Below, piece by piece: positions 13,917-54,500 of a stretch of 64,000 bases of DNA (position 1 is its first letter; every line of letters starts with the position of its first letter). Where the stretch lies: the NCBI GenBank assembly GCA_011390205.1, contig JAABSX010000013.1:1-64000 (forward strand). Direction: 5' to 3'. A program made the translations under genes and the position numbers. Below the pieces are notes generated by a model. It was given only the letters and a program-made list of their open reading frames with translations. It was not told the DNA's origin and made no database searches. Source of the stretch: Microscillaceae bacterium (GTDB lineage: Bacteria; Bacteroidota; Bacteroidia; Cytophagales; Microscillaceae).

Positions 13917-15182
13917 TTACATATTTTTGATGACTTCATTCCCAAATTCAGAGCATTTGAGCAAAGTAGCCCCTTCCATTTGTCTATGAAAATCATAGGT
14001 TACTTTTTTAGACGCAATCGCTGCCTCTAAGCCTTTGTAAATGGCATTGGCTGCTTCTTGCCAGCCAAGATATTCTAGCATCAGAGCACCTGACAAGATT
14101 ACGGAGCCTGGGTTTACTTTGTCTAAGCCTGCATACTTGGGGGCTGTGCCGTGGGTCGCCTCAAAGATGGCATGCCCTGTGGTATAATTGATATTGGCAC
14201 CTGGAGCAATGCCGATACCTCCTACGATGGCAGCAAGTGCATCAGAGATATAATCTCCGTTAAGGTTCATCGTAGCAATAACATCATATTCGGCGGGACG
14301 AGTCAGAATCTGCTGTAAGAAAGCATCTGCAATCACATCTTTGACGATGACCTTACCAGCGGCTTTGGCATCAGATTGTGCCTTGTCTGCGGCTTCTTTG
14401 CCTTTTTCTTCACTGATGCGGTCATATTGAGACCAAGTAAATACTTTATCTCCAAATTCACGCTCTGCAAGTGCATAGCCGTAGTTTTTGAAAGCACCTT
14501 CCGTAAATTTCATGATATTGCCTTTGTGCACAATCGTAAGCGAGGGGCGCTTGTTGGCAATGGTATATTCTAGGGCACTTCTGATAAGTCTTTCAGAGCC
14601 TTCCTTAGAAATAGGTTTGATGCCAATAGAGGATGTTTCGGGGAAGCGGATTTTGTTTACCCCCATTGTATTGACGAGAAAATCGATGACTTTTTTAGTA
14701 TCTGCCTCACCATTCATCCATTCTATGCCCGAATAAACATCTTCGGTATTTTCTCTAAAAATGACCATATCACAGGTAGAGGGGTCTTTAACAGGGGAAG
14801 GTACTCCTTCAAACCATCTTACAGGGCGTACACAAGCATAAAGGTCAAGTTGCTGACGTAGGGCTACGTTGAGTGAGCGAATGCCACCACCTACGGGGGT
14901 AGTCAATGGCCCTTTGATACCGACTAAATATTCATTAAAAGCGTCTAGAGTAGCTTGCGGAAGCCATTCTCCAGAGACATTGAAAGATTTTTCACCAGCC
15001 ATGACCTCTTTCCAGATAATTTTCTTGGTGTTACCATAGGCTTTTTCTACGGCTGCATTGATTACTTTTTGAGAAGAAGCCCAGATATCAGGCCCTGTAC
15101 CATCTCCTTCTATAAAAGGAACAATGGGTTGATTAGGAACGATTAATTTCCCGTTTTGAATACTTATTTTTTCTCCGTTCAT
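13917..15182 (-). CDS. icd: Isocitrate dehydrogenase (NADP)
   Basis: Oxidative decarboxylation of isocitrate to 2-oxoglutarate in the TCA cycle. The 421 residues from ATG 15182 align with the E. coli-type enzyme from the start ([18 protein letters not shown]). The substrate loop [14 protein letters not shown] includes the Ser that in E. coli is the phosphorylation site. [14 protein letters not shown] and the metal site [12 protein letters not shown] are present. [17 protein letters not shown] carries the Lys-Tyr pair associated with NADP use. An in-frame extension to 15341 was rejected because it is AT-rich and has no counterpart in the family. TATATTTG at 15264-15271 is a candidate -7 box. 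Confidence 0.95.
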
Positions 15183-15522
15183 TATTTTATATAAAAAAAG
15201 TGAAAACTTATATTTGAAAAGTTTAATGCATAAACTTTTTTCAAAAAAAACATTTAATATGAGCAAATATAAGCTAAGTTTTTCAAAATTGAGGGTTGGA
15301 AAGTACAATTCGGGTAAATCTCTAAACATTTCACTAGACACTCTAGTTTTTTACTTTTGTCAATTTTAAGTAGGGATATTTTTTGTAGCTTTGTATCATC
15401 ATTAGATACATCTAACGCTCTATATTGTCTTATTTTTTGGTTAATTTTTTTGGTATTTTTAAGTAGAAAAGTCTAAAAAAATCTAAAAAATTTTCCTATT
15501 ACATAACTTAAATTTTATTGAA
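15183..15522. other. Divergent control region between icd and hisG
   Basis: 340 AT-rich bases. Candidate -7 boxes are TATATTTG on the minus strand (15264-15271, for icd) and TAGCTTTG on the plus strand (15386-15393, for hisG). The nearest TTG upstream of the latter is 26 bases away, longer than the usual 17-23. The implied hisG leader is ~120 bases. No His-codon leader peptide or clear attenuator stem was found. Confidence 0.4.
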
Positions 15523-16383
15523 TTGGAAAAGAAACTACGTCTAGCTATTCAGAAATCAGGTCGTCTGAGTGAGAATAGCTTAGATTTGATCAAACAGTGT
15601 GGCATCTCCTACACACAGGCATTCGGAAAGCTCAAAGCAGAAGCCAATAATTTCCCACTTGAGTTTTTATTTTTAAGAGATGATGATATCCCTAAATATG
15701 TAGCCAATGGCATTGCAGACATTGGGATTGTGGGTGAAAATGTATTGCTAGAAAAAAACGAAGCCGTAGAAGAGGTTTTGCCCCTAGGCTTCGCAAAATG
15801 CAGACTTTCTATAGCTGTCCCTCGTGATTTTTCATATAACAATATAGAAGATCTCAACGGAATGAAGATTGCCACTTCCTACCCCGTGATTCTTCAAAAA
15901 TATTTAAAAGAAAATGATGTAAATGCCCAAATACAAGAAATCAGTGGCTCTGTAGAAATAGCCCCAAGCATCGGGCTTGCCAAAGCAGTCTGTGACATCG
16001 TCAGCTCGGGCAGCACCCTTGTCAGCAACGGACTCAAAGAAGTAGAAGTCGTGTTTAAGTCGGAGGCTGTCTTAATCGCACATCCTCGGCTAGAAGAAGA
16101 ACAACAGCAAATCTTATCACAGCTTTTGTTCAGAATCAAGGCTGTACGCAAAGCCAAACAAAATAAGTACATCCTGATGAATGTACCTAATAAATCCATA
16201 GAAAAGGTCATCAAACTACTGCCAGGCATGAAAAGCCCCACAGTGATGCCCCTTGCAGATGAAGGCTGGAGTTCGCTACACTCAGTAGTGCAAGAAGATG
16301 AATTCTGGAAAGTCATCGAGCAGTTACAAGAACAAGGTGCAGAGGGAATCTTGGTAGTGCCTATCGAAAAAATGATTGTGTAG
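15523..16383 (+). CDS. hisG: ATP phosphoribosyltransferase, long form
   Basis: First step of histidine synthesis (PRPP + ATP). The 286 residues fit the long, self-sufficient HisG with a C-terminal regulatory ACT-like domain (~residues 210-286, KAVRKAKQNKYILMNVP onward), so no HisZ partner is required. The N-terminal LRLAIQKSGRLSENSLDL, the VGENVL segment and the PRPP-binding IVSSGSTLVSNGL loop are all present. The start codon is TTG at 15523, which alone gives the expected N-terminus MEKKLRLAIQKSGRL. It begins the plus-strand his cluster, with a 59-base gap to hisD. Confidence 0.95.
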   Translation: MEKKLRLAIQKSGRLSENSLDLIKQCGISYTQAFGKLKAEANNFPLEFLFLRDDDIPKYVANGIADIGIVGENVLLEKNEAVEEVLPLGFAKCRLSIAVPRDFSYNNIEDLNGMKIATSYPVILQKYLKENDVNAQIQEISGSVEIAPSIGLAKAVCDIVSSGSTLVSNGLKEVEVVFKSEAVLIAHPRLEEEQQQILSQLLFRIKAVRKAKQNKYILMNVPNKSIEKVIKLLPGMKSPTVMPLADEGWSSLHSVVQEDEFWKVIEQLQEQGAEGILVVPIEKMIV

Positions 16384-42493: not shown

Positions 42494-45400
42494 ATGGAAG
42501 CTGATACATCTACTTATACCAAAAAAATCCAGAACCCTTTTCCTGGACTTCGTGCATTTCGCCCTGATGAATCTTACTTGTTTTTTGGAAGAAGCACACA
42601 AGTGCAAGAAGTAGCCAAAAAGCTTGTCAAACATCGCTTTGTGTCTGTCATTGGGCCTTCGGGTATAGGTAAATCCTCCTTTATTTACTGTGGTCTGTTT
42701 CCTTCTATAAAAAATGAAAACCCCGCAGATAACCAGCTAGAATGGAAAATAAGCACGCTGCAGCCAGGTGAAGCACCCCTACAGCACTTGCTCCAGGCCT
42801 TAGACATAGACCAAGAATGCACCCAATACGATGAGATGAAAGCCGAACTCAAAGAAGATTTTGAGGCAGAACCTCAAAACAAACTCATCTTCATAGACCA
42901 GTTTGAAGAATTGTTCCGCTTTGAGAGCCTCCATAAATCTAACCACCAAGCATCTGAGCAGTTTGTACAGCTACTCCTTGACCTTGCCGCACAACAAGAT
43001 GTGCCTATTTATATCGTCATCACGATGCGTTCAGATTTTATCGGAAACTGCTCTAGATACCCTAGATTCACCCAAAAGATCAATGACAGCCAGTTTTTAA
43101 TTCCTTTTATGACAGAAGAGGAAAAAAAACAAGCCATCACAGGCCCAGTAAAGTTTATGGGGGTAGATATAGATGATGACCTCGTGGAGAAAGTGCTCAA
43201 AGATGTAGAAGAAATCCCTGAGCAGCTTCCCCTCATGCAGCACGCACTCATGAGAACTTGGAATGAATGGCAGAAAAACCGAAATAGAGACACTGGCCTC
43301 AAAATATATCATTATGATGAGATAGGAGGCATCAAGGAAGCACTCTCGGTACACGCCAATGAAGCCTATAACGAACTTCCACCTGAGCAAAGAAATACTT
43401 GTGCAAAGATATTTCGCTCCATCACAGAAATCACCAATGACGGCAGAAGAATCAGAAGACCCGCACAACTGAGGGAAATCGCACACGAAGTCAATGCTTC
43501 CGAAGAAGACATTATCAGTATTGTAGAACCCTTCCGAAGAAAAGACAGGGGATTGCTTATGCCCTCCGAAGAGGAAACCCTCCAAGGCGACAGCATCATA
43601 GACATCTCGCATGAAAGCCTCATCAGGGTATGGAATACATTGCACACTTGGGTAGAGCAGGAGTCTGAATCTGTGAAATTATATCTTCGCCTTGCCGAAG
43701 ATGCAGAAAAACACCAAAAAGGACAAGCAGGACTCTGGACTAACCCTGATTTAGAAATCGCCCTTGACTGGCGCAACAAGCAGAAGCCCACCAAAGCTTG
43801 GGGAATCAGATACCACCCTACTTTTGACCGCACCATGTGGTTCTTACAATCAAGCAAAGAAGCACATGACCAGCAACTGATCAATAAAGAACAAAAACGC
43901 ATTAGAGACAGACGCACAAGCATTCTTGTACTTAGGCTTATCACGGCAGCTTTGGTTTTTGCCATTGTCTTGTCAGGGGTTGCTCTTCAGCTATGGGGAA
44001 AAGCCGAAAAAGAAAGTGATAGGGCAGAAGCAAATAGGGTCAAAGCACAAATAGCACTAGACTCCGCAGAGGTAAATAGAGTCAAAGCCGTAACAGCACT
44101 AGACTCCGCAGAGGTAAATAGAGTCAAAGCCGTAACAGCATTAAAATCTGCCGAAGCAAATAGAGTCAAAGCTGTACTTGAAGCAAAAAAGGCTGAACTC
44201 GAAAAAACAAAGGCTAAAACTGCCGAAGACCAAGCAATAAAGGAAGCAAAAATTGCCCAAGTAAGTAAACAACTTGCCGAAGTAGAAAAACAACTTGCTC
44301 AGATTGCTCGTGAAGAGGCAGATGAGTTACGCCTCCTCTCTATTGCAAGCTCCATGGCAATCAAATCTAAAGACCTTACTGACAAACAACAAAAAGCCCT
44401 CGTGGCACAGCAGGCTTATAAATTTCATGAAAGAAGTAAAGGAGACCCTAATAATCCTGACATCTATACAGGGCTTTACTATGCACTCAAATCTATCGAG
44501 GAAGATGATTATGCCCAATTTAAAGGGCATACTGCCAATGTAAGAGGCTTGGTAAGCCTGCAAGGCACTCTGGTCTATTCGGCTGGCAGTGATGGCAAAA
44601 TTATCCTCTGGGACAGCCAATCAAGAGAAGTAAAAGAAAGTATCGAACAAGATTCTATCCACAGAGCATTGGCAATCAGCCCAAAAAAGAGTTGGCTGGC
44701 TTGCGTAGGCAACTACCCTGGTGTGCAACTCTTTAAAAACGGGGAACTAAAAATGCCCCCAAAAAAAATCAATCTAGATAAATCCGTAGGACAAATCTGG
44801 TTTGTTACCTTTTTGGATGAGCAAAGAATCGTCTTCGCAGATGAAAGCGGCAACATCAACCTTGGCAATACACAGGATCACTCCAGCCTCATCTTACAAT
44901 CAGAAGGCAAAGGTGCCATTACGAGTATCGCATCAGCACAAGGAACAATCGCCTATGCCGTGGGCTCACAGGTATTTCTGCTTACGGGAGATTACACAGA
45001 AAAACAAGCATTTCCTACTGATGACCTAGGGAGTATTATATCCTTGGCAATCAGTGATGATGGGCGATTCTTGGCTTTAGGAGATGCCTTCGGGACAGTG
45101 CAGGTTTATCAAATCAGCAACCGATCTCTCAGGGGTGTCGCTCTCAAAGGGCACAATGCACGAGTCAACCAAATCGCTTTTAGCAAAGACGGTAATAGGC
45201 TTGCCACTGGTAGCTTTGACCAAACCGTGAGAATCTGGAATATCAAAGAACCTAAAGATTTTGACCGTCCTCCCATCATACTAGAAGACCATAACGACTG
45301 GGTCTGGTCTATCACTTTCAATGACAAAGGAAATCTACTTTTGGCTGGATGCAGAGATAAACTAGTAAGAGCATGGCCTACCGACCTAAAGAGCATGTCT

Positions 45401-45589
45401 TCAAGAATATGCCCCGCACTGGATAGAAACATGAGCAGAAAAGAGTGGGAGCGATTCGTGGCTACACTACAAGTAGATGAAAAAAAAGAAGGTGAAGCAG
45501 AAAGCATCATTTATTATGAAAAAACCTGTGAAAACTATAAAGAGGGAGTGGGGATTACCGAAAAAGATTTGTCCCCCAAAAAAAAATAA
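42494..45589 (+). CDS. Membrane-anchored nSTAND1-type NTPase with WD40 propeller
   Basis: 1031 residues. Residues ~14-440 form an nSTAND1-type NTPase module: NPFPGLRAFRPDESYLFFGR start, Walker A GPSGIGKSS (54-62), Walker B LIFIDQFEELF (131-141), then winged-helix-like GLLMPSEEE/ISHESLIRVW. One membrane segment at ~475-500 follows positively charged residues, so the N-terminus should be cytoplasmic. A charged coiled coil (~505-620) with four 14-residue repeats leads to seven WD40-like blades (~670-985), which would be periplasmic, and a tail with RNMSRKEWERFV and YEKTC. Similar proteins in Cytophagales and cyanobacteria are often mis-annotated as carbon-uptake proteins. It starts a five-gene plus-strand cluster; no toxic effector domain is fused. 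Confidence 0.88.
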   Translation: MEADTSTYTKKIQNPFPGLRAFRPDESYLFFGRSTQVQEVAKKLVKHRFVSVIGPSGIGKSSFIYCGLFPSIKNENPADNQLEWKISTLQPGEAPLQHLLQALDIDQECTQYDEMKAELKEDFEAEPQNKLIFIDQFEELFRFESLHKSNHQASEQFVQLLLDLAAQQDVPIYIVITMRSDFIGNCSRYPRFTQKINDSQFLIPFMTEEEKKQAITGPVKFMGVDIDDDLVEKVLKDVEEIPEQLPLMQHALMRTWNEWQKNRNRDTGLKIYHYDEIGGIKEALSVHANEAYNELPPEQRNTCAKIFRSITEITNDGRRIRRPAQLREIAHEVNASEEDIISIVEPFRRKDRGLLMPSEEETLQGDSIIDISHESLIRVWNTLHTWVEQESESVKLYLRLAEDAEKHQKGQAGLWTNPDLEIALDWRNKQKPTKAWGIRYHPTFDRTMWFLQSSKEAHDQQLINKEQKRIRDRRTSILVLRLITAALVFAIVLSGVALQLWGKAEKESDRAEANRVKAQIALDSAEVNRVKAVTALDSAEVNRVKAVTALKSAEANRVKAVLEAKKAELEKTKAKTAEDQAIKEAKIAQVSKQLAEVEKQLAQIAREEADELRLLSIASSMAIKSKDLTDKQQKALVAQQAYKFHERSKGDPNNPDIYTGLYYALKSIEEDDYAQFKGHTANVRGLVSLQGTLVYSAGSDGKIILWDSQSREVKESIEQDSIHRALAISPKKSWLACVGNYPGVQLFKNGELKMPPKKINLDKSVGQIWFVTFLDEQRIVFADESGNINLGNTQDHSSLILQSEGKGAITSIASAQGTIAYAVGSQVFLLTGDYTEKQAFPTDDLGSIISLAISDDGRFLALGDAFGTVQVYQISNRSLRGVALKGHNARVNQIAFSKDGNRLATGSFDQTVRIWNIKEPKDFDRPPIILEDHNDWVWSITFNDKGNLLLAGCRDKLVRAWPTDLKSMSSRICPALDRNMSRKEWERFVATLQVDEKKEGEAESIIYYEKTCENYKEGVGITEKDLSPKKK
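44033..44200 (+). repeat. Four 42-bp in-frame repeats coding a 14-residue coiled-coil unit
   Basis: Units begin at 44033, 44075, 44117 and 44159, each encoding NRVKA followed by nine residues such as VTALDSAEV. Units 1-3 differ by only a few bases; the fourth diverges towards the C-terminus. This is internal to the STAND-WD40 gene. Confidence 0.85.
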
Positions 45590-47875: not shown

Positions 47876-50482
47876 ATGAAATACCTATTTAGCTTAACCA
47901 TTCTGTTAGGAATCTACACAAATGCCTTGGCGCAGCTACAAGATGATTTCTCAGACGGAGATTTTACGCAAAACCCTGCCTGGAGTGGTGATGAAAATCA
48001 CTTTACCATAGATAACCTACAGCTCAGAAGTGCAGGACCAAGTGCCACAGCTACCCTCGCCCTCAGCACAGCCAATACCAGAATCAACCAAACAGAATGG
48101 AGATTTTTATTAGACCTACGCTTTGCCCCCTCTGCCAGCAATCAAGTAAGAATATACCTCACAGCAAGTCAAAATGACCTCAAAACAGCACTCAATGGCT
48201 ACTACTTAGAAATAGGACAAACTGGAAGCGATTTTATCAGAGTATTTAGGCAGGATGGCACTGCAAACAGCCTTCTTTTTACAGGAAACACCGCCTTTAC
48301 AGCAAATGTAAAAGTACGTATCAAAATCATTAGAGATAATCTAGGCAACTGGCAAGTATCCGCAGACCCCAATGGCGGAGAAGTATTCACAGCAGAAGGA
48401 GATGCTTTTTTAGACAACACCTATACCTCTACTCAATTCTTTGGAATAGTCTGTAGGCATACCTCTTCTAATGCAGCTAATTTTCTCTTTGATGATTTTT
48501 ATATCGGAGATGAAATCATAGATAACAGCCCCCCTACCCTGCAAAGCATCAGCGTACTCTCTGCCAACAGCATTCGGCTGCAGTGGAATGAGCCTCTGAT
48601 AAATACCATCGCACAAGACTCCACTAATTATCAAGCAAACAATGGCTTGGGAAATCCAGATGTAGTCCAAACTAACCCACTTGACCCTACTCAAGCTATC
48701 CTGACTTGGAGTAACCTCCTCATCAGCGGACAAAACAATACACTGATAATCAGCAATTTACAAGACCTAGCAGGCAATGTCTTGAATCCAAACCCTACAC
48801 AAGTTACCTTCACCTACAATGCACCCCCACAATACCACGAGCTTGTCATCAGCGAAATCATGGCTGACCCCACAGGAGATGCCGCACCACTCAATGGATT
48901 GCCAGAGGCTGAGTTTGTAGAACTCCATAACCGCTCTAGCAGAATGCTTAACCTCAAAGATGTCATATTCAGAGATGAGGGAGGAAGCTTTCAACTGCCT
49001 GAATTTATGCTACCCCCCGATGACTACGTGATTATCTGTGCTCAAGCCCAAGCAGCAGATTTTGCACTTTATGGTGATGTACTGCCCATTCCTTCTTTTC
49101 CTTCTCTGAGCAATGGTGGAGAAACACTCATGCTAGAAAACACTCTAGGAGGGCTTATATTCGCTGTAAAATATGATGACAGCTGGTATCAAAACTCAAG
49201 CAAAGCAACTGGCGGCTGGACACTAGAAATGATTGATACGAATAACCCCTGTGCCGAGCGAAATAACTGGCTTGCCTCCGAAGACCCAAAAGGAGGCACA
49301 CCCGGAAAAATCAATTCTATCAATGCCCTCAAACCTGACTTTACCGCACCCGAACTATGGCGGGCAGAAGCCTTAAATACTCAGACAGTTCGGCTTACTT
49401 TTAATGAACCCATGAGCCAAAGTAGTATACAAAATGGCACTTATCTGCTCAGCGATGGGCTTACAGTAAGCCAAGTGCAGCCCCTTGCACCTTTTTTCAA
49501 AGAAGCAATACTTACAATTAGCCCCCCAATAAACCCTCAGCAAAGCTATCAAATCACTGTAGAAGGGCTTACAGATTGTAACCAAAATCTAATCACAAAC
49601 CGCAATCAAGCAAATTTTGGCTTGGCAAGCCCAAGCGATTCTGCAGATGTCATCCTAAACGAAATACTCTTTAACCCACGCACGGCAGGAAGTGATTTTG
49701 TAGAACTTTACAACCGCTCCACTAAATTTATCAACCTGAAAAACTGGAAATTAGCCAACCTCAATAATGGCATTATTGCCAATCAAAGAGTCATCACCCA
49801 AGAAGATTACATCTTAGCTCCCCAAGCCTATTTATTACTAAGCAGTGATACTGACAATATCAAAGATTACTATCCACTCTCAAAACCCAGTACATTTTTA
49901 GAAATGAGTAGCCTGCCTAACTATAACAATGATGCAGGTACTGTATTCATAAGCAACGAACAGGGAGAAATCATGGAGCGATTTGATTACCAAGAAGATT
50001 TTCACTTTCCCCTACTAGATGACAAGAAGGGTATCTCTCTCGAGAGAATTTCTACCGAAGCCCCTACCAATCAGGCAGATAGCTGGAAATCAGCCTCTGC
50101 TGGAGTTGGTTTTGCTACTCCAGGCTACCTCAACTCTCAACAGGCACGCAGCCCTGCCAACAGAGGTGAAATCACACTCAACCCCCAGATACTCACCCCT
50201 GACGGAGATGGACAAGATGATTTTACACAGATTAAGTACCGATTTCAGCAAAGTAGCTACTTGGTAGATGTATTTATTTATGACCGCAATGGCAAAGAAA
50301 TCAAACGCATCGCCGAGCGAAAACTCCTAGGCAAAGAAGAAGGATTTTTTACTTGGGATGGCACAGACAATGAGGGCAGAATTGCCAGAGTAGGATACTA
50401 TCTTGTGCTTGTCAAGACCTTAGATTTGCAAGGAGCTACACAGGTCTATAAAGAAAAAGTAGTCATTGGTAAGCGATTTTGA
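47876..50482 (+). CDS. Surface protein with lamin-tail domains, Ig-like modules and FlgD/CHU_C-like C-terminus
   Basis: 868 residues with a signal peptide (MKYLFSLTILLGIYTNALA). A jelly-roll-like N-terminal domain (~20-215) is followed by a bacterial Ig-like segment (SISVLSANSIRLQWNEPL), a first lamin-tail domain (ISEIMADPTGDAAP...EFVELHNRS), a second Ig-like segment, and a second lamin-tail domain (LNEILFNPRTAGSDFVELYNRS). The C-terminus, ILTPDGDGQDDF ... WDGTDNEGRIARVGYYLVLV, is a FlgD-Ig/CHU_C type domain common on Bacteroidota surface proteins, possibly used for T9SS export. Lamin-tail domains occur with extracellular nucleases and adhesins, but no catalytic domain is present here. Confidence 0.85.
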   Translation: MKYLFSLTILLGIYTNALAQLQDDFSDGDFTQNPAWSGDENHFTIDNLQLRSAGPSATATLALSTANTRINQTEWRFLLDLRFAPSASNQVRIYLTASQNDLKTALNGYYLEIGQTGSDFIRVFRQDGTANSLLFTGNTAFTANVKVRIKIIRDNLGNWQVSADPNGGEVFTAEGDAFLDNTYTSTQFFGIVCRHTSSNAANFLFDDFYIGDEIIDNSPPTLQSISVLSANSIRLQWNEPLINTIAQDSTNYQANNGLGNPDVVQTNPLDPTQAILTWSNLLISGQNNTLIISNLQDLAGNVLNPNPTQVTFTYNAPPQYHELVISEIMADPTGDAAPLNGLPEAEFVELHNRSSRMLNLKDVIFRDEGGSFQLPEFMLPPDDYVIICAQAQAADFALYGDVLPIPSFPSLSNGGETLMLENTLGGLIFAVKYDDSWYQNSSKATGGWTLEMIDTNNPCAERNNWLASEDPKGGTPGKINSINALKPDFTAPELWRAEALNTQTVRLTFNEPMSQSSIQNGTYLLSDGLTVSQVQPLAPFFKEAILTISPPINPQQSYQITVEGLTDCNQNLITNRNQANFGLASPSDSADVILNEILFNPRTAGSDFVELYNRSTKFINLKNWKLANLNNGIIANQRVITQEDYILAPQAYLLLSSDTDNIKDYYPLSKPSTFLEMSSLPNYNNDAGTVFISNEQGEIMERFDYQEDFHFPLLDDKKGISLERISTEAPTNQADSWKSASAGVGFATPGYLNSQQARSPANRGEITLNPQILTPDGDGQDDFTQIKYRFQQSSYLVDVFIYDRNGKEIKRIAERKLLGKEEGFFTWDGTDNEGRIARVGYYLVLVKTLDLQGATQVYKEKVVIGKRF

Positions 50483-51270: not shown

Positions 51271-51654
51271 ATGAACAAAGTTTTCGGGGCAAGCTATGCC
51301 GCTGTGTTTATTGATAAAAAAGAGAAGAAAATAAAAATAGTTTGGAAAGGCTCTCTGACAGGTATGCAGTTCAAACTGGTGCTAGAGCTGGTGCTAGAGC
51401 TGATGCACAAATACAGCATTGATATCATTGCAGAAGACCGTAGTAAACTACGATTACAGCAAGAAGATGAGTCTGACTCGTGGATTAATAACTATTTTCT
51501 CCCGAATCTATCTCGTGTCAGTAAATACATCATCAAAGATTACCCATCTAGTTATCTGAAAAATTTGTTTTCTGATCTAGATGCAGACAATAGTCCTAAA
51601 TATATGTTATTTTCTAACCACCAAGAATTTGAAAACGCCTTTGAAATAGCTTAA
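51271..51654 (+). CDS. STAS-like small protein
   Basis: 127 residues, soluble, beta-alpha alternation (AAVFIDKKEKKIKIVWKG, then a helix, then IDIIAEDRSKLR, then WINNYFLP). This resembles SpoIIAA-like STAS proteins of Bacteroidota, often regulators that bind kinases. It lies directly before the tandem histidine-kinase gene, 245 bases apart. A GTGCTAGAGCTG 12-bp unit occurs twice in tandem at 51380-51403, coding a repeated Leu/Glu segment. TAACTTTG (51156-51163) is a possible -7 box. Confidence 0.55.
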   Translation: MNKVFGASYAAVFIDKKEKKIKIVWKGSLTGMQFKLVLELVLELMHKYSIDIIAEDRSKLRLQQEDESDSWINNYFLPNLSRVSKYIIKDYPSSYLKNLFSDLDADNSPKYMLFSNHQEFENAFEIA

Positions 51655-51899: not shown

Positions 51900-54500
51900 A
51901 TGGTTAAACCCGAAGAAATTGCCTTGGAAAAAACATCACAATACCTTTCAAAACTAGGTCAAGTAGGTCCAGCAATCACTTCGCAACCCTCCCTAAAAAA
52001 GATTCTGAACATTTCTTTTGAATCGATTCAAAAGTTTATGTCTGCAGATTTATTCGCTATTGGCTCTTATGAAAGCACTAGAAAATACCTTAATTTTCAC
52101 ATCCGAAGCAACGTAGATGCTACTTATGGCATTTATACCCAAGCGCTCTCACTCAAAAACAGCGAGCACCTCGCAAAAAAATGCTTCGATATGCAAACAA
52201 GCTTATCCGAGTCAGATTTTCAAGAGCAAGACAAAGCACTTGCTATGCTGGGCAAAGATGCCAACTACCAATCAGTGATGTATATCCCTTTGCATCATCT
52301 TCACAAAAAAATAGGCGTACTCACGGTTCATTCTACCAAAGCGGATGCTTATTCAGAAATAGATCTCTACGTACTACAAAATTTTGCCGTCTTCATCAGC
52401 ATTGCCATTGAGAATGCGCAGGTTTATAAAAAAATGAAAAGCCAGAATGAAGAGATCATGAGAAAATCTCGTGAATATCAGTCACTTATAAAAGCAATGC
52501 CCCAAAGCTTGTTTCGGACAGATATAGATGGCAACATTACCTTCGCCAACCAAGCATTCCTCAAACAACTTGGCATCAAACTTGAAAACCTTATTGGACG
52601 AAAAATATACGATTTTTATGTCAAAGAACTTACAGATATACTTCGCTCAGATGACCTCTGGGTCTTTGAAAACGAAAATGATTTGGAGGCAATCAGAGTG
52701 CTGAAGACCTCCCCACTTGTAGAAGCCATCGTAGTGCAAATGATTAAATCTCCTATTTTTGACATGGAAAGCCGTGTCATAGGTGTGCAGACTACCTTCT
52801 GGGATATTACAGAAAAACAAAAAAATCAAGACCACCTACGCCTCCAAAAGGTAGAAATCAGAAAACAAGCCAGAGAACTTACCAAAATCAACCGTGAACT
52901 AGAGAAAAAGCAGGCTGATATCAAACTTATCAATGCTCGGCTAGAAGCCGAAATCCAGAGAAGCCTGCTACAGATTCGGAAGACTAAAGAAGAGTTGGAT
53001 TTTTTCTTGTATCGTGCCTCTCATGACCTTCGCCGCCCACTCACTACCCTCATGGGGCTTACACAAGTAGCTCGGCTCTCTCTTGATAATCCTGATGCAG
53101 TCAGGCTTTTCGAGAAAGTAGATACTACTGCACATTTTATGGATAAAATGCTCGCTAAATTGTTAATGATTAGTGAGATTCACGAGACCAACTTCACCGT
53201 AAAACCTATTCAGTTTGAAAATCTGCTAAATCAAATCTACACAAAATATAAACCCGAACTGAGAGAGAAGGGAATACAGTGGGAATATAAAATCAAAGGT
53301 GAAATTACATTTAAGAGTATCACCAAGCTGATTGAGATTATTCTGGAAAATCTTGTAGAGAATGCCATTAATTTTTATCAGCCCGATGCAGACAGAGGCT
53401 CATTCTTAAAAGTCAAGGTCTATCAAAAAAAGGATATTTTGCATATTATAGTCAGTGACAATGGGCAAGGCATCGCTTCTGAGCATCATTCTAAGGTCTT
53501 TAAAATGTATCAGCGTGCCAATTCCTCTTCACAAGGCAACGGGCTAGGGCTGTATGTAGTCAAAAAAGCACTCAATGCACTGGGCGGGCAGGTTTCTTTA
53601 GCAAGTAAAAAGAATGAATTTTCAGAATTTCACATCATACTACCCCCCTTTCAGGTGCTCAACAACAATAGCATCTCGGCAGAAATAAACGAAGTAAAAG
53701 AAACTTCCATCAATAGTGAAACAAACAGTGTGGAAAAAGCAAAACTACAAATGCAAATAGAAGCTCTAGAATCGGAAAAGCACATCTTGCAATCACTTAA
53801 TAATACAAAAGACCAGTTTTTAAAGATTCTTTCACAAGATTTTAAACGCCCCCTTAAATCTTTGTTTCATTTTGCCCAACAGATTAATAATCAGTATGAT
53901 AAACTCAAACCCCAAGACATCAAAAAACTGGGTTTGGAGCTAGAAAACGCTACTAAAGAGTTTAGCCAAATGATAGACAATCTATTCTTAATGACTATCT
54001 TACAGTTGGATAACTGGACACTCTCACTCGATGAGATCAATATTGATGAGGTCGTTCAGAATGTGGCAAATCAAGTAAAGCCTCTCATCAAAGCAAAGAA
54101 TCTTCATATTTCTATCGATATTCCTGCATACAAGTTGTTTTCAGACAAAGTAGTCATTGAGAATGTATTGCATAACCTGCTTTCTAATGCCATTCGGTTT
54201 ACGCCTGAGCAAGGAAATATTGAGGTTTATTCAGAAATCAATGAAGAAGAATGCCTGATACATATCAAAGATTCAGGTATGGGGATTCCAGAAGACATAC
54301 AGCATCTTTTGTTTAGAATAGAAAATAAAATCTCCCTCCCTGATACCGAAGGAAGAGAAAGCAATGGCTGGGGGCTACTCCTGAGCCAAGATTTTATCAA
54401 GAAAATAGGAGGCAAAGTTTGGCTTGAGAGCAAAGTATCTCAAGGAAGTATTGTCTCTTTTAATATCCCACTCAGACCCCAAAAGAAGCATAGCTCATAA
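51900..54500 (+). CDS. GAF-PAS sensor histidine kinase with two kinase cores, second lacking the His
   Basis: 866 residues without membrane segments. GAF (~25-180), PAS (~195-305), coiled coil, then core 1: H-box RASHDLRRPLTTLMGL with His375, N box ENLVENAINF, G1 DNGQGI, G2 GNGLGLYVV. A linker and second coiled coil lead to core 2: SQDFKRPLKSLFHF, where Gln646 (CAA) takes the place of the phospho-acceptor His. The second ATPase domain keeps the N box (NLLSNAIRF), G1 (DSGMGIPED) and a G2-like GWGLLL. Core 2 may bind ATP or act as a regulatory pseudo-DHp. Its 3' end overlaps the converging UbiA gene by 29 bases. Confidence 0.92.
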   Translation: MVKPEEIALEKTSQYLSKLGQVGPAITSQPSLKKILNISFESIQKFMSADLFAIGSYESTRKYLNFHIRSNVDATYGIYTQALSLKNSEHLAKKCFDMQTSLSESDFQEQDKALAMLGKDANYQSVMYIPLHHLHKKIGVLTVHSTKADAYSEIDLYVLQNFAVFISIAIENAQVYKKMKSQNEEIMRKSREYQSLIKAMPQSLFRTDIDGNITFANQAFLKQLGIKLENLIGRKIYDFYVKELTDILRSDDLWVFENENDLEAIRVLKTSPLVEAIVVQMIKSPIFDMESRVIGVQTTFWDITEKQKNQDHLRLQKVEIRKQARELTKINRELEKKQADIKLINARLEAEIQRSLLQIRKTKEELDFFLYRASHDLRRPLTTLMGLTQVARLSLDNPDAVRLFEKVDTTAHFMDKMLAKLLMISEIHETNFTVKPIQFENLLNQIYTKYKPELREKGIQWEYKIKGEITFKSITKLIEIILENLVENAINFYQPDADRGSFLKVKVYQKKDILHIIVSDNGQGIASEHHSKVFKMYQRANSSSQGNGLGLYVVKKALNALGGQVSLASKKNEFSEFHIILPPFQVLNNNSISAEINEVKETSINSETNSVEKAKLQMQIEALESEKHILQSLNNTKDQFLKILSQDFKRPLKSLFHFAQQINNQYDKLKPQDIKKLGLELENATKEFSQMIDNLFLMTILQLDNWTLSLDEINIDEVVQNVANQVKPLIKAKNLHISIDIPAYKLFSDKVVIENVLHNLLSNAIRFTPEQGNIEVYSEINEEECLIHIKDSGMGIPEDIQHLLFRIENKISLPDTEGRESNGWGLLLSQDFIKKIGGKVWLESKVSQGSIVSFNIPLRPQKKHSS

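Follow-up and report, generated by a model that had tools for sequence, protein, structure and literature searches.

In a 64,000-nucleotide stretch of a Microscillaceae genome (hereafter, the window), we identified an open reading frame (ORF) that encodes two histidine kinase (HK) cores in tandem. Judged from its residues, core 1 is equipped with everything needed for autophosphorylation. Core 2 carries Gln at the phospho-acceptor site and, by its sequence and predicted fold, falls within the definition of a pseudo-histidine-kinase, i.e., an HK fold lacking at least one HK function. On balance, we regard the protein as a probable fusion of a sensor kinase with an ancient pseudo-histidine-kinase, in which core 1 would signal and core 2 would have a docking or regulatory role. 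The features of the locus are listed in Table 1. The ORF with its two cores and their acceptor motifs, the complete N, G1, and G2 boxes that accompany His375, and Gln646 in core 2 are all as described in the original prediction, which was made from the letters of the window.

Table 1. The tandem-core kinase and the ORF upstream of it (positions in the window)
Feature	Positions	Strand	Residues	Motifs and remarks	Source
Tandem-core sensor kinase ORF	51900..54500	+	866 aa	GAF-PAS-core 1-core 2	ORF list, Pfam
GAF domain	51990..52415	+	31-172	Least conserved part, 19% identity with orthologue	Pfam
PAS domain	52473..52817	+	192-306	58% identity with orthologue	Pfam
DHp1 (HisKA)	52998..53195	+	367-432	SHDLRRP at 374-380; His375 codon 53022-53024	
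CA1 (HATPase_c)	53196..53648	+	433-583	N box NLVENAINF, G1 DNGQGI, G2 GNGLGL	
DHp2	53811..54011	+	638-704	SQDFKRP at 645-651; acceptor Gln646 (CAA, 53835-53837)	
CA2	54012..54497	+	705-866	NLLSNAIRF, DSGMGIP, NGWGLL	
Upstream ORF	51271..51654	+	127 aa	No Pfam or NCBIfam match	

Pfam detected two HATPase_c stretches in the ORF, and its HisKA model matched residues 368-428, i.e., core 1 only, and missed core 2. The PDB entries matched by the core 2 sequence were of the HK type (8u4x, HK853, and WalK), together with DivL (4q20) and RetS. Neither a Pfam scan nor a genome-wide receiver search found a receiver domain in the ORF; the protein is thus not a hybrid HK. The usual HisKA phosphatase motif includes Thr or Asn four residues past the acceptor. 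Neither residue occurs at this position in either core, and the motif is therefore absent from both.

This arrangement is unique in the genome (4.5 Mb, 124 contigs). In an HATPase_c search at the curated cut-off of 26.4 bits, the ORF was matched at 53331-53645 (75 bits) and 54147-54476 (68.9 bits), and it is the sole ORF to carry two of the genome's 54 matches. None of the 43 receiver matches in the genome lies on the contig of the tandem kinase (C29, 87 kb), which thus offers no candidate partner response regulator; the kinase is accordingly an orphan, a point that counts against the pseudokinase fusion proposed here. Two-transmitter HKs have been counted before: according to passages of a census (PMC3018481), they account for 2 of 15704 non-hybrid and 51 of 4650 hybrid HKs. 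As described there, these proteins likewise have two transmitter domains per chain, but nearly all are hybrids with receivers, whereas the protein reported here has none; loss of the acceptor is not mentioned in those passages. A search of the open-access literature returned no tandem HK with a pseudo core, which does not prove that none exists.

Loss of the acceptor His alone is known and is not extraordinary, since this residue is replaced in about 1% of HKs, with Tyr, Gln, Asn, Arg, and Asp named as substitutes (PMC5361649); a later count gave 0.9% of HisKA domains without His (PMC12632262). What is new is a pseudo core fused behind an intact core in the absence of a receiver. The same genome encodes a second, DivL-like pseudo-kinase candidate, fused to a receiver. 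This 399-residue receiver-HK (L069, minus strand of contig G000:C61; HATPase 14529-14858, receiver 15267-15614) has Tyr at the acceptor site (LLSLISYDVRAPLDSL) and is otherwise fully canonical, with 1 of the 41 conserved columns defined below changed.

Orthologues were sought in sets of 57, 193, and 350 genomes of the same order, in 295 genomes of the class, and in one scan of genome contigs. These searches turned up a single orthologue, present in the set of 350 same-order genomes and belonging to another genus of the same family (G009:C120). The class sample (n=295) contained no orthologue outside the tandem kinase's own genome, and plasmids yielded only partial matches of less than 60% identity. 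Within core 1, a one-base frameshift in an A-run (L012:2181-2300), probably an assembly error, splits the G009 orthologue; the two pieces, which lie in two frames, were compared separately. That only two orthologues are available, one of them split by a frameshift, weighs against the pseudokinase fusion that we favor. In addition to the GAF and PAS values in Table 1, identity between the two proteins was 75% in the coil, 76% in DHp1, 47% in CA1, 32% in the linker, 64% in DHp2, and 31% in CA2.

The orthologue has His (CAC) at the acceptor site of core 1 and Arg (CGT) at that of core 2, within KDQFLKILSRDFKRPLKSLFKFAQ, where the Microscillaceae tandem kinase has KDQFLKILSQDFKRPLKSLFHFAQ. The loss of His is thus common to both genera, and the replacing residue is not conserved. 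Among aligned HK matches to core 2, 75 have His at this position (a count that includes overlapping loci); the exceptions are the two orthologues and one Tyr protein of the same genome. Gln646 as the product of a sequencing error or a recent mutation is ruled out by the orthologue, which also lacks His. Homologues with His at this site, together with frequent variation elsewhere, were named in the original prediction as the sign of simple decay or a sequencing error; the only orthologue has no His there. The original prediction had also asked whether Gln is fixed in homologues: the two orthologues share the loss of His, but Gln itself is not fixed. A special role for Gln is therefore not supported, and the idea that Gln646 mimics a fixed acceptor state and is itself a functional residue, which accords with its presence in the Microscillaceae protein, is largely refuted by Arg in the orthologue and must be considered highly improbable.

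We examined core 2 at 41 columns in which at least 85% of 35 related sequences agree (when a relative was itself tested, the 34 others served as reference). The tandem kinase and the G009 orthologue each depart at 13 of the 41 columns, against a median of 2 for the set; only L079, which sits on a long branch in another subfamily, departs at more. Ten of the changed columns are common to both orthologues: H646, L696, W698, L725, R758, K766, G815, E819, G821, and L856. In the same test against its own relatives, core 1 is changed at 4 of 56 family-conserved columns, all outside the catalytic boxes, and both the acceptor His and the N, G1, and G2 boxes of a HisKA-type kinase are present.

The statement that core 2 retains its ATPase boxes thus holds for the anchors but not for the remainder of the site. 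Asn759, Asn763, Asp791, Gly793, Gly795, Gly823, and Gly825 are kept, and the invariant Asn, Asp, and Gly residues survive in the orthologue too; the N-box Lys (now R766) and most of the ATP lid and G2 consensus (now D815, R819, and S821) are lost, and in the G009 orthologue the lid is shortened and the F box is gone. Core 2 therefore lacks both the acceptor His and the complete ATP-binding boxes of a HisKA-type kinase. These observations bear on the possibility that CA2 has kept ATP binding and acts as a kinase on His375, in cis or in trans, so that two catalytic domains would serve one acceptor. Retention of Asn759, Asn763, Asp791, and the G1 and G2 glycines in both orthologues speaks for it; the degenerate Lys and lid positions, the missing F box of the orthologue, and the faster change of CA2 relative to the other half of core 2 speak against it. 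Because core 1, moreover, comes with its own complete CA domain and has no need of another, phosphorylation of His375 by core 2, as put forward originally, is weakened, and we judge it quite unlikely.

Alternatively, core 2 may have lost all function and be a fusion remnant in decay. Loss of the acceptor and the ATP lid, the further erosion of CA2 in the orthologue, and the great rarity of orthologues would fit such decay. However, the open frame of core 2 has been kept in both genera, and DHp2 retains 64% identity and 18 shared derived residues, which makes this reading unlikely.

The two halves of core 2 differ in how they have changed. In helix 1 of DHp2, 21 of 23 residues are identical between the orthologues, the acceptor being one of the two changes. 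Residues common to the pair and rare in relatives occupy 18 of 65 DHp2 columns versus 8 of 157 CA2 columns, a skew that points to a DHp2-specific role. The ratio of DHp2 to CA2 identity is 2.06, whereas none of 462 paralogue pairs exceeds 1.53. Unusual conservation of DHp2 is nevertheless ruled out as an interpretation, since close orthologue pairs and core 1 give similar ratios: the DHp-over-CA log-distance ratio is 2.6 for core 2, 2.7 for core 1 of the same pair, and 2.0-3.5 for most close pairs. We read DHp2 as being under purifying selection of apparently ordinary strength, which is no proof of a new function.

The two cores have different origins. In a maximum likelihood tree, the two core 2 sequences form a pair (support 100) that nests within the clade of FFSIISHDL-type kinases; core 1 belongs to a different clade, that of FLYRASHDLRRP-type kinases. 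An origin of core 2 by internal duplication of core 1 is ruled out by this separation and by the 25% identity between the cores. By sequence, the tandem protein is an old fusion: two different kinases were joined before the two genera diverged.

An AF2 model of core 2 has the DHp and CA fold (pLDDT 85). Its best solved match by VIA-align was the pseudo-kinase DivL (4q20 chain B; Z 25.2, rmsd 2.1, 223 residues), barely above complexes of active HK853, which came next (Z 23.4); Foldseek placed HK853 first by E-value. The lead of DivL in the fold match may reflect only its conformation. Confidence in the full-length model is low (pLDDT 68, pTM 0.50), and the model is uninformative on core-core contacts. 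The narrow lead of DivL and the weak full-length model both count against the pseudokinase fusion that we favor. Long helices are predicted in the full-length model to continue into both DHp domains, as would suit a purely structural extension in which DHp2 forms a second dimerization bundle that stabilizes the dimer or sets its spacing and binds neither ligand nor partner. The better conservation of DHp2 than of CA2 agrees with such a role, but a dimer element needs neither the CA anchor residues nor the surface around the lost acceptor, and we treat this as possible rather than probable.

Under the pseudokinase fusion that we favor, GAF-PAS input would drive CA1 to autophosphorylate the protein at His375, from which the phosphoryl group would pass to a response regulator whose gene lies elsewhere. 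Core 2 would take no part in the chemistry and make no phosphate bond. DHp2 would instead act by docking or allostery, binding a response regulator or kinase and relaying its state to core 1, i.e., the logic of DivL within one chain. A pseudokinase controlling core 1 was among the original proposals; the pseudokinase is the best fit to the data, and the mechanism of control is what we infer.

The neighborhood of the gene was also inspected. A frame-broken relative of the 127-aa ORF lies upstream of the G009 orthologue as well, and the 127-aa product is a possible partner of the tandem kinase. As a conserved partner gene the ORF was rejected: relatives elsewhere are weak and, in the two loci examined, do not lie beside kinases. 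Further upstream, the window encodes a 1031-residue nSTAND1 NTPase with WD40 repeats (42494-45589) and an 868-residue protein of secreted type (47876-50482), in which Pfam finds two lamin-tail domains along with a CHU_C domain, a type IX secretion signal.

DivL of Caulobacter (4q20) offers the closest parallel. It has no kinase activity, binds TNP-ATP weakly (57 uM), and can dispense with its CA domain, and a conserved surface of its DHp domain serves to bind DivK~P and to control CckA (PMC4211667; PMC5361649). Like DivL, core 2 combines an HK fold lacking the acceptor His with a constrained DHp domain, and kinase activity is not to be expected of it. The two share only 18% sequence identity and differ in several respects. 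DivL has Tyr at the acceptor site with all other HK boxes kept, several PAS domains, and a separate kinase, CckA, on which it acts in trans; core 2 has Gln or Arg, has lost lid residues also, and is fused behind an active-looking core in a chain with one GAF and one PAS domain.

Two other HK-like proteins resemble core 2 in part. RcsD (PMC3762810) has a domain named a pseudo-histidine-kinase inside a larger signaling protein, as here, but it contains an HPt domain and acts alongside RcsC, a separate kinase, whereas the tandem protein has no HPt and carries an active-looking kinase in the same chain. RetS (6dk7/6dk8) has an HK region that regulates another kinase, as proposed for core 2; however, it is a separate hybrid that acts on GacS via heterodimers (PMC12189002), and it matches core 2 less well than does DivL.

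We tentatively suggest that the protein could be the bacterial equivalent of proteins that carry a kinase and a pseudokinase in tandem; DHp2 would then sense the phosphorylated response regulator of core 1, or a second pathway, and feed back within the chain, replacing the two-protein DivL-CckA pair. The few characterized pseudo-histidine-kinases that we found in the literature are separate proteins or lie within phosphorelay proteins. With a kinase and a pseudokinase in one receiver-less chain, the effect of a pseudo-histidine-kinase would become measurable, by deletion or point mutation, in a single purified protein.
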